A stretch of 64,000 bases of DNA from Myrmaecium sp. VS I D KN 1 (taxonomy: Eukaryota; Ascomycota; Dothideomycetes; Valsariales; Valsariaceae), in contig JADQAV010000008.1 in NCBI GenBank assembly GCA_019775845.1, positions 62,001 to 126,000 on the forward strand, read 5' to 3'. The notes below the pieces were generated by a model. It was not told the DNA's origin. It saw only the letters and a program-made list of their open reading frames with translations, and did no database searches. Each line of letters starts with the position of its first letter. Within the stretch, counting starts at the first letter, position 1. The position numbers were made by a program, and so were the translations under genes. Positions 860 through 18,919 of the stretch are shown in pieces.

Positions 860-3800
860 ATAATGTAAATAGATTAAAACGTGCGGGAGTCGGTGTGCTT
901 GTTGTTCCAGCATTGGGATTATTCGGGCCGGCGAGCTTGTTTGAACCAGGAGGCCAGGGGGCTTGTTTCTGTTTCGTGTTTCGACGGGGTACCGAGTGAT
1001 GGTGATGAGGATGTCGATCATCGAATGCTTGCTTGGAAAGGCATCCGATGTTGTTGTGACAGTGGAAACAAGGAGGCGTGATGTATTGTAGCACAGGTAG
1101 AAAGTAAATCCGTCGGGAGTGTGAATCAACGCCTAACCATCCATCCTTACCACCACCATCGGCAATCGTTTTCCACCCAACGAAATAGTGAACTCGATCG
1201 ATCGTTGGTGGAAGAAACGCCGCGGACACGCCGGCCGTTACCCCTTGCCCCTTGCCCCTTGCCCCAAGCGTCCTACCCGCCCGGCCCCCTCCCCCCCTTT
1301 TTTTTGGGCTTCCCCCGCACCGTCGTCATCGCTCAATCTATTTCCAACATCCTTCCATCTAATCCATCCGTATACCATTTCTCCGAACGTCCGTTCTGCA
1401 TTGCTGTTTATTCCTTTCGGTTCTTCGCTATGAGCGAGGCACGTGAACGGACCGGACCGACAGACGACGTCCGATCCCCGGTCGGCGGCCGCCTCTCGGG
1501 CGGTTCCCGGCGCGCGGGAGCTGGCTACCTAGTTGGCTAGCTGGATGGCTGCTACTGTACCTCATTGATGTCTGATCGCGACGGTGCGCCGGAGAATTAT
1601 CACGCTTACGGAGCGCAGGGCATACCATGTGGATTGTCCTTCACGTTGCTGGGACCAGATCCGATCGGATGTTGTATCTGTATACGCAAGACGACGAAAA
1701 GACCTTCCCCGGCTAGATATGCGAGCCCGCCTCGCTGTTTCGTTTGACCGGGGACTTCGTTCTGCTTCTCTCTGTCAATTCCCGATGACCGTGAGCGATC
1801 GCGACAAGTAAACACTGGAAGGAAACTGCTTTGCTTTGCTCCACCCGCAGCGTGCGTCGTGGTGTTTACCTAACCCCCTGAGCGCTAGGTACTTTCTTGA
1901 TTTCCTCCGTTCGGTTTGCCCAACCCTCTTCGTGGGAAACCGGGAGAGGACCGAACGAGGAAGCGAGCCACGTCCTTATTAAACACTTTCATACGTACTT
2001 TGAACGGACAAGGCGTGTGGTGCGCGTGCGGGCATAGATGGAAGTCCGCAACAAACGAACGGAGGGGCATACCCACTGCCCGGGCATATGTATGCTTCCT
2101 CCCCTGAGCGACTGACGCCCGAACTTCTGCGTGCGGATGCGTATTCGATGGCCTGGATTAGCATAGAGAGAAGAGCAGCGATTCGTATGTATACCTACTT
2201 ATGGTGTTGAGCTGCGATCTCCTTACGGATACTCCCTACCTAATCCCACCTCACCTCCCCTCAAATATCTACTTCATCCATTCTCCATTCCAGCAGCAGC
2301 AACCCGACCCCGCTAATCAAATGCATCCCGCGCATGGATAAAGAATTCAATGGTAGAAGGCCTTCCGGCTTGGCCTTCGCCGGCGTCTAGGCATCTCAAC
2401 CATCAAAAGTATAAGGTAAGGAGCTAAAGCCATACTTGACGTGCATACACGCCTTACTGCGAACAAACAGGCGATTAGTTGTCTTTTAAATACCGCTGTG
2501 ATTCCGCCTAGCCCTCTCTGGTCCCGCACACTCCTCCTGTTTGCCGTATTGACCGTATCATCCATTATCATCATCCATGATGGGAGGGATCACGGCGGAT
2601 ACCGTACAGTACAGTATACAGTACATACATACCACGCAAGCGGAAACTGGTTCTCTCCGCCGTCGCGGTAGAAAAAGTCTTAGTCTTCCGCCTCTTCTCT
2701 TCTCTTCTCCGCTTCGTCTTCTTTGCTTCCTCCCGCTGCCGTTTCTCTGCTGGGTCAACGGGTGCGCTTGCACGTTCTGCGTTCCACGTTCCACGTTCCA
2801 TAGCATCGCTAGAGAGGGTATTATCATCACGCCTTTCATCCTACCTGCACAGTCAAGCCATCGGGCAGTTCTGAGAAGCGCTGGTCGTTTCCGGATCTCG
2901 CGCATGAGCACAGGGCTTCCGAAGACCAGGCTGACAGGAGGTAAGACTTGTCGTTCCTCGTAGGCCCCCCCTACCAGACCTTCCTGCAGACTCTCAGGGT
3001 GCCACCCAGCTCCCTCACAGTATCCCCTGCAGCTCCTTTCCCCGACCCGTTTGTAAGCTTCTTTACCAGCTCTTAACAGGCCCTCATCGCCGACTTTCTC
3101 GAGCGCCCCCGAATAAGCTGCCAGCCGGCCCCTTCTCTCGCCAGTTTGATCCTTACCCGGAGAAATGTGTGGAGGCTTGCTCGCTTGCAAGGGATAGGAG
3201 AGGCGTCTGCGGGATGCCTCGCAGGACTGCTTGTAGGTTTCTGTGTTATTTTGCGATCGTGGGGCTGGTGGGATTGGGGTAGAGGGGCTTCTGCTCTGCG
3301 AGGTGTTGGTGTGTATGTATAAGGAGGCCGTGTCGAAATGTTGATCCTGTCGCTCGCTCGTGCGGTAGGGGAGAAGTTCAACGCATTCTTGTCTCATCGT
3401 CTTCAGTGCAGTCGTTATGCTGGCTCGGTACCCGCTGGTGTAGCAGTATGTGAAGGTGGATTCCTGTCCAAAAATAAGTCCTGATTCTCCATTCATCAGG
3501 CCGATACATACCAAACGACCCGCCACCCATGATGGCTCAAACAAAACCACATCCTTTCTCAACATAAAAAGAGCGAAATTTTCAATGAGAAGACAAAAAC
3601 ATACAGCAGCAGGGATTCGCTAATGGTCACCCACTTAACTACTAATCTGCCGGTAGGCTGCTTAACTGTGGAAGAGCGGACGGGGTTCCGTGTTCTCAAC
3701 CTCCTATGGCCGTATGTGGTAGATTTGCCATCCTTTGGTGTTTATATTCCCCAGTGCTGGAGCTGGGCGGACGATATGAGGCTGCCAAATGTATATTAGT

Positions 3801-6460: not shown

Positions 6461-6556
6461 CTCTCCCTCGGGGAATCGAACCCCGGTCTCCCGCGCTTGT
6501 TATCCTATTGGCTAGGAATTGACAAGCGGAAATCATGACCACTAGACCAAGGAAGA
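6461..6556 (-). tRNA. tRNA-Asp(GTC) with intron
   Basis: Read on the minus strand, the cloverleaf is complete: acceptor TCTTCCT (6556-6550) pairs with AGGGAGA (6468-6462) using one G-U pair, followed by discriminator G at 6461. The D arm has the usual TGGTCTAGTGGT A box, and the T arm GGGGTTCGATTCCCC holds the B box. The anticodon loop is TTGTCAC (anticodon GTC, Asp) once a 24-nt intron at 6519-6496 is removed; the intron follows base 37, the standard place. CTTGT just before and ACAAG at the end of the intron can pair, as needed for tRNA endonuclease recognition. The acceptor stem differs from the usual fungal tRNA-Asp stem, yet pairing is kept. Confidence 0.93.
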
Positions 6557-18600: not shown

Positions 18601-18602
18601 TC

Positions 18603-18842
18603 TTCCTCAAGGCCTTGCAAATAGCAAGGAGCTCAATGAAAAAAAAGGAGGATCGCGTCAGCCCCGAGTGGTGCAAACAGGGCGACACTGTCCCAGAAGA
18701 CGTAGGCAAGCCCAGCGGCCTTCCGGGGAGCTCCAAAGATTTTTGTGAAAAGAGAAGAGGTCCGTAGACCCCAGCTCGGGAATCACTCCAAGCTAGAACG
18801 CACGCTGCGCTTGATCTAAGCCAGAAGGCAAAGAAAGAGCTG
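18603..18842 (-). ncRNA. U2-like spliceosomal snRNA with altered branch-site recognition region
   Basis: On the minus strand the RNA begins near 18842, about 45 bp after a TATA box. It shows the U2 layout in order: CTTTGCC with stem-loop I (18829-18820, GCC..GGC), the U2-specific TTAGATCAAG (18819-18810), then where GTGTAGTATCTG is expected it has GCGCAGCGTGCG (18810-18799). A 7-bp stem IIa follows (18794-18788 with 18779-18773), then stem-loop IIb GGTC-TACG-GACC (18770-18759) and an Sm-like site ATCTTTGG followed by AGC (18740-18733), about 100 nt from the 5' end as in U2. A terminal hairpin at 18640-18603 pairs TTCATTGAG with CTTGAGGAA around an inner CCTTGC/GCAAGG stem. There is no ATG on this strand between the TATA box and the hairpin. 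It could be a functional variant or a decaying extra U2 copy; the kept stems and promoter favour the former. Confidence 0.72.
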
Positions 18843-18881: not shown

Positions 18882-18890
18882 CTTTTATAG
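18882..18890 (-). promoter_or_regulatory. TATA box of the U2-like gene
   Basis: CTATAAAAG on the minus strand, followed by a pyrimidine-rich stretch and then the RNA start about 45 bp downstream. Confidence 0.65.
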
Positions 18891-18919
18891 ACAGGCGACT
18901 GCTCGACTCGCTTAGCTGG

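Follow-up and report, generated by a model that had tools for sequence, protein, structure and literature searches.

The window, by which we mean the whole 64,000-nucleotide stretch of DNA analysed, carries on its minus strand a gene for a U2 small nuclear RNA (snRNA) variant, the body of which runs from 18841 to 18647. The match to the Rfam U2 model (RF00004) covers the whole model (positions 1 to 192) at 91.4 bits (E 6.8e-17), exceeding the gathering score of 46 used as the cut-off for U2 matches, and a model built from six U2 copies, this one included, scores it at 188.2 bits. U12 snRNA (RF00007) was rejected as its identity, the Rfam match being to U2 and not U12; a genome-wide U12 search returned zero matches, but its controls were equally silent and it has no bearing on the minor spliceosome. 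The variant agrees with canonical U2 in its length, the order of its stems, the Sm site, the terminal loop and the U6-pairing strand. From the 5' side, all on the minus strand, the features are the U2/U6 helix I strand GGCTTAGATCA (18812 to 18822), which is identical to that of the main U2 copies, the branch-point recognition hexamer (18803 to 18808), stem-loop IIa (18773 to 18794, AGCTTGG with CCGAGCT, six pairs of which enter the stem-pair comparison given below), stem-loop IIb (18757 to 18772, GGGGTC TACG GACCTC, also in that comparison), the Sm site AATCTTTGG (18733 to 18741, aligned with those of the other U2 copies) and stems III and IV with the loop TTTGCACCAC (18647 to 18732, from the Rfam match, the stem-pair comparison and RNAalifold). 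As the hexamer is not GUAGUA, the gene was classed as a U2-derived variant and not as canonical U2.

Upstream of the gene a scan located a TATA box (TATAAAAG, 18882 to 18889) at -48 and an exact octamer (TAAGCGAG, 18907 to 18914) at -73. Within 160 nt upstream, the octamer CTCGCTTA (or the complement) is found exactly in 6 of the 13 regions scanned, these being the U2 genes on contigs C21, C18 and C64 (the window copy), both U1 genes and the U4 gene, in either orientation; the chance of its occurrence in a random 160-mer is P 0.0038. It is absent as an exact match from the 160 nt upstream of each of the C27, C10 and C5 U2 genes, the U3, U5 and U6 genes and the U1-like RNA described below. Downstream lies an snRNA 3' box (18601 to 18640) composed of TTCATTGA, a hairpin and TTGAGGAAGA, an exact pattern that has eight matches in the 25.66-Mb genome and none when reversed. 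Its carriers are the U2 genes of C10, C27 and the window, the U1 gene on C10, the U4 gene on C9, a second U4-like 3' end found by pattern search, the U3 gene (Rfam 157.9 bits) and an RNA at window 42785 to 42520, whose box occupies 42561 to 42520; looser forms were seen by eye at the C21, C18 and C5 U2 genes and the other U1 gene.

An earlier note, made from the letters of this stretch, had described U2 landmarks in order, an Sm-like site about 100 nt in, a TATA box and an upstream element, and had looked for a high Rfam U2 score. These are borne out, the Sm site lying about 101 nt from the start and the octamer being common to other snRNA genes. The interval it gave, 18603 to 18842, contains the U2 copy but also takes in most of the downstream 3' box.

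The shared octamer and 3' element mark the U1, U2 and U4 genes of this genome, and the 3' element also marks the U3 gene. In the accessible part of a report on S. pombe, hairpins 3' of pol II snRNA genes are cut by Pac1 and are absent from U6 (PMC8421224). These hairpins likewise lie directly downstream of pol II snRNA genes, whereas those described here are about 5 to 6 bp by eye and are flanked by conserved sequence blocks; the 3' box hairpin might be a substrate for a Pac1-like RNase III. The U5 gene has TATATATA at -30, as does the U6 gene at -28, and unlike the U1, U2 and U4 genes it lacks an exact 3' box; U5 is perhaps transcribed by pol III.

The genome consists of 66 contigs. The closest match to its SF3B1 protein among the best 120 of 4007 matches listed is that of Coniosporium apollinis (80% identical), which places the host among the filamentous ascomycetes (Pezizomycotina). 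A profile search of the contigs, with the best candidates scored, gave at least six U2 loci over the cut-off: C21 (134.6 bits), C18 (118.5), C27 (108.9), C10 (100.3), C64 (91.4) and C5 (77.9), the first four of which have GTAGTA. The same search gave at least one U6, one U5 and one U4 gene, together with two U1 matches (65.6 and 50.1 bits) below the cut-off. The U2 genes of C27 and C10 are each predicted to harbour a spliceosomal intron bounded by GTAAGT and CAG, that of C27 being 74 nt long with the branch motif TGCTGAC and that of C10 96 nt long with TGCTAAT. Removal of these introns in silico restores the U2 sequence, except in C10 for one base beside the intron junction and two bases absent near the 5' end, and both are presumably spliced out. 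An mRNA-type intron in the U2 gene of Rhodotorula hasegawae (Takahashi 1993, as cited in the accessible part of PMC2586383) is a precedent for these two introns, not for the window copy. A single PF08920 match was found in the genome and no SF3B1 paralogue was seen.

The branch-reading hexamer and the stems

The hexamer with which U2 reads the branch site is among the most constant sequences in the spliceosome. In the window copy it reads GCAGCG (18808 to 18803, minus strand) in place of the GTAGTA of canonical U2, as the earlier note had it, and the changes extend to one base 5' and two bases 3' of the hexamer. Relative to the stretch common to the C21, C18 and C27 copies there are six changes in 10 nt, and the remaining 25 of the 35 positions compared are intact, the comparison omitting the extreme 5' end and the four-base stem I loop, which does differ. 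The probability that six changes among 35 positions would all fall inside the twelve bases named in the earlier note is 0.0006, and that they would fall in an equally short span at any place is 0.002. That note had counted about seven changes in the twelve bases with intact flanks; the clustering and the unchanged flanks stand, and the count is corrected to six. The hexamer uridines are lost, including one at a position where pseudouridine is conserved (accessible part of PMC4950102). Repeat-induced point mutation was rejected as the origin: the substitutions in the hexamer (T to C, A to G and the like) all increase G+C, and the 4 kb surrounding the gene (G+C 0.51, TpA/ApT 0.88) have no visible shift of the kind it leaves.

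Elsewhere in the gene the stems have diverged in sequence but appear to be kept. Of the 41 stem pairs compared with C21 (in IIa, IIb, III, IV and the 3' hairpin), 18 have changed, 15 of them on both sides, and pairing is retained in every one; the arms were set by eye for each sequence, which favours pairing. Under a model in which one letter changes at random, retention of pairing at 18 of 18 changed pairs has a probability of 2e-8. RNAalifold with a structure-free alignment of all the U2 copies gave two-sided changes at 18 of 44 pairs. For the window copy, 5 of the 7 pairs in stem IIa were scored as broken on this unadjusted MAFFT alignment, because MAFFT puts its two extra bases elsewhere. 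The earlier note had observed that IIa and IIb depart from the usual sequence yet pair fully; on comparison with the other copies this holds with the hand-set arms. Relative to canonical U2 (RF00004, hexamer GUAGUA) the loop of stem IIa is also rewritten, and stem IIc, the alternative to IIa, would by eye have only 4 bp (GUGA/UCAC), a length that chance might also give. The predicted U2/U6 helix II duplex with the one U6 match has an energy of -11.6 kcal/mol, as compared with -13.4 for C21.

Pairing with the branch sites of the host genome

Introns predicted from gene structure in 264 kb (the window plus 200 kb of contig C10) numbered 43, of which 20 had a branch motif; a stricter run found 14 CTRAC motifs as compared with 1 to 6 for four scrambled motifs. 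Over these 20 motifs plus the two U2-gene introns, the canonical and variant hexamers were tied 11 to 11. As these introns were too few, whole-genome matches to GTAAGT/CTRAC/CAG patterns were used, of which there were 346 with CTGAC and 382 with CTAAC. The reversed patterns gave 81 and 59 matches, respectively, and thus 15 to 23% of the intron-pattern matches may be due to chance. From the matches listed, 186 branch-site motifs with distinct donors (92 with CTGAC plus 94 with CTAAC) were taken by eye, 83 of them with G at heptamer position 2. All of the pairing tests concern this one genome.

GCAGCG was compared with the 540 hexamers that lie three positions away from GTAGTA using four pairing scores. 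Over the 186 sites it ranked 1st of 540 by weighted pairs, 10th by pair count and 8th by nearest-neighbour energy of a 5-bp helix (2nd of 270 when the first G was kept). It ranked only 103rd when the energy included the bulged A and the pair beyond (2nd of 32 at equal G+C), which we think is due to the last pair being dropped to escape the bulge penalty. Note that the letters left unchanged are those opposite the C, the U and the last C of the motif, all fixed in it by design. The mean 5-bp helix energy favoured the variant over ordinary U2 at the 38 GCTGAC sites (-4.85 versus -1.48) and the 45 GCTAAC sites (-3.18 versus -1.77) and disfavoured it at the 23 ACTAAC sites (+1.21 versus -1.49). 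As judged from these ranks, GCAGCG does not look like a random loss of branch reading and is a hexamer predicted to favour xGCTRAC sites.

The interpretation in the earlier note, selection for a changed pairing partner, is supported only in part: among triple mutants the hexamer is unusually suited to the branch-site motifs of its own genome on three of the four scores. However, the canonical hexamer pairs more over the same 186 sites (means of 5.08 pairs for GTAGTA and 4.52 for GCAGCG), with at least five pairs at 154 sites for ordinary U2 and at 93 for the variant. When pair count was considered first the variant was better at 84 sites and the canonical hexamer at 102; the variant was favoured at 88 sites by the energy with the bulge and at 106 by the 5-bp energy. 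Moreover, the one test made for a separate intron class among the 186 motifs detected none (Fisher p 0.22, odds ratio 0.63), the counts of G or A at position 2 by G or A at position 5 (38, 31, 45 and 23) departing in the direction opposite to that of a dedicated class.

Readings of the variant

This genome has, beside canonical copies, a U2 gene in which a cluster of changes has rewritten the branch reader while the stems are compensated and snRNA-type signals are present, and we infer that the variant is transcribed, assembled and used in splicing. Our preferred reading, for which we see an even chance, is that of a functional U2 retuned towards GCTRAC sites. The paralogue would be transcribed and assembled into a U2-type particle that would read intron branch sites via the changed hexamer. 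The hexamer has kept the three positions that would pair with the C, the U and the final C that are invariant in nnCTRAC, and those changed would face the variable positions of this motif, giving G-C pairs with xGCTGAC and xGCTAAC where ordinary U2 has G-U wobbles. Such a particle would read ACTAAC sites poorly, leaving ACTRAC sites to the ordinary copies, and its preference for GCTRAC sites would shift splicing efficiency between introns.

The main alternative is a U2-like particle in which branch reading is switched off, the stretch being folded on itself, and which serves as a decoy, a buffer of U2 proteins or a splicing regulator. Such a particle would keep the U2 proteins and the U6-pairing strand. 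The branch-reading stretch of the window copy is indeed predicted to form a local hairpin (18797 to 18811, minus strand, 6 bp with loop GCG) of -5.3 kcal/mol, whereas the canonical stretch gives 0.0, and so stable a hairpin makes a switched-off reader possible. Random changes at the same six sites fold equally well with P 0.011, and changes at six random sites of the twelve with P 0.018. However, equally good folding is seen in 4 of 32 sets of all-G/C changes at these sites, and with the hexamer held fixed the actual flanking changes rank 5th of 64, indicating that G+C content accounts for the hairpin in part. The branch-reading stretch of U2 sits in a stem-loop before intron contact in the accessible parts of PMC8357632 and PMC11482624, and the predicted hairpin would fit a stem-loop that has been rebuilt as well as a reader that is locked. 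The C5 copy gives this alternative further backing: its branch reader is differently altered (GAACAGACGTATC) and also predicted to fold (-4.0 kcal/mol), its U2/U6 helix I strand is changed, although its stems are still paired, and its hexamer forms five pairs at 0 of the 186 motifs. On this last count C5 is the better candidate for lost branch reading. A switched-off reader in the window copy would have no need to keep the positions facing C, U and C, nor to rank so high, and an intact helix I strand would be unneeded in a decoy. We consider this alternative rather unlikely.

An old duplicate in the course of being lost, its transcription and folding signals intact and its branch reader gone, would account for the low identity of the window copy to the other U2 copies (64 to 69% pairwise, about 66% to C21) and for its place on the longest branch of a weakly supported six-row tree. 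Damage or change is also seen in other copies, in helix I of C5 and stem III of C18. Such a duplicate would hardly retain pairing at every changed stem pair, have its branch-reader changes clustered in 10 nt or carry both an exact octamer and an exact 3' box, which several canonical copies match only loosely, and we judge this distinctly unlikely.

On the same strand, 24 kb from the U2 copy, lies a further, unannotated Sm-type RNA (window 42785 to 42520, minus strand) with a TATA box and the eighth exact 3' box. Its first 100 nt are predicted to form a four-way junction, the first loop of which resembles that of U1, and contain a ATTTTTTGG site. The apparent 5' end is ATAGGCA, not ATACTTACC, and has no ACTTACC there. 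The Rfam U1 score is only 17.1 bits, the fold z-score is -2.19 with 5 of 200 shuffles equally stable, and no second copy was found in the genome. This loop motif is present at three further places, which seem by eye unrelated to U1, making it weak evidence alone.

A further reading, in which two U2 particles would split the branch sites by position 2 (the canonical taking ACTRAC and the variant GCTRAC), with the U1-like RNA perhaps a second rewritten recognition RNA and the window part of an alternative intron-recognition set, strikes us as very doubtful. We give still less credence to a U2-derived Sm RNA whose new stretch pairs with a non-splicing target, as when structural RNAs are reused as guides: the changes reaching beyond the hexamer and the nearby U1-like RNA with its different 5' end would suit it, but the U6-pairing strand has been kept and the target is hypothetical. 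Plain decay to a pseudogene was rejected as the main reading because the stems are compensated and the octamer, TATA box, Sm site, 3' box and U6-pairing strand are all kept, in agreement with the earlier note, which had argued against a dead copy.

Known U2 variants and other genes of the window

Expressed U2 isoforms are described in flies, mouse, silk moth, Dictyostelium and sea urchin (PMC4291461), and as here several sequence-divergent U2 genes occur per genome. Those isoforms differ in variable regions and in developmental use, and the accessible part of that report has no rewritten hexamer beside canonical copies. In Leishmania major UUAUAA replaces GUAGUA, also a natural departure from the canonical hexamer (accessible part of PMC4950102). 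Leishmania major differs in being a trypanosomatid with trans-splicing. There, UUAUAA belongs to the organism's own U2 and not to a variant accompanying canonical copies. The literature searched, with subscription journals mostly outside it and the negative therefore weak, yielded no natural case in which a U2 with a rewritten hexamer accompanies canonical ones. A natural paralogue of this kind, in which the hexamer alone among the U2 features checked is rewritten, would allow one to ask directly whether a single transcriptome can be served by U2 particles that differ in specificity and whether the choice of splice sites is guided by snRNA paralogues, and would be nature's equivalent of the experiments with suppressor U2.

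The minus strand of the window also carries a 5S rRNA gene (3598 to 3717, 89.9 bits) and a tRNA-Ile(AAT) gene (6461 to 6556).
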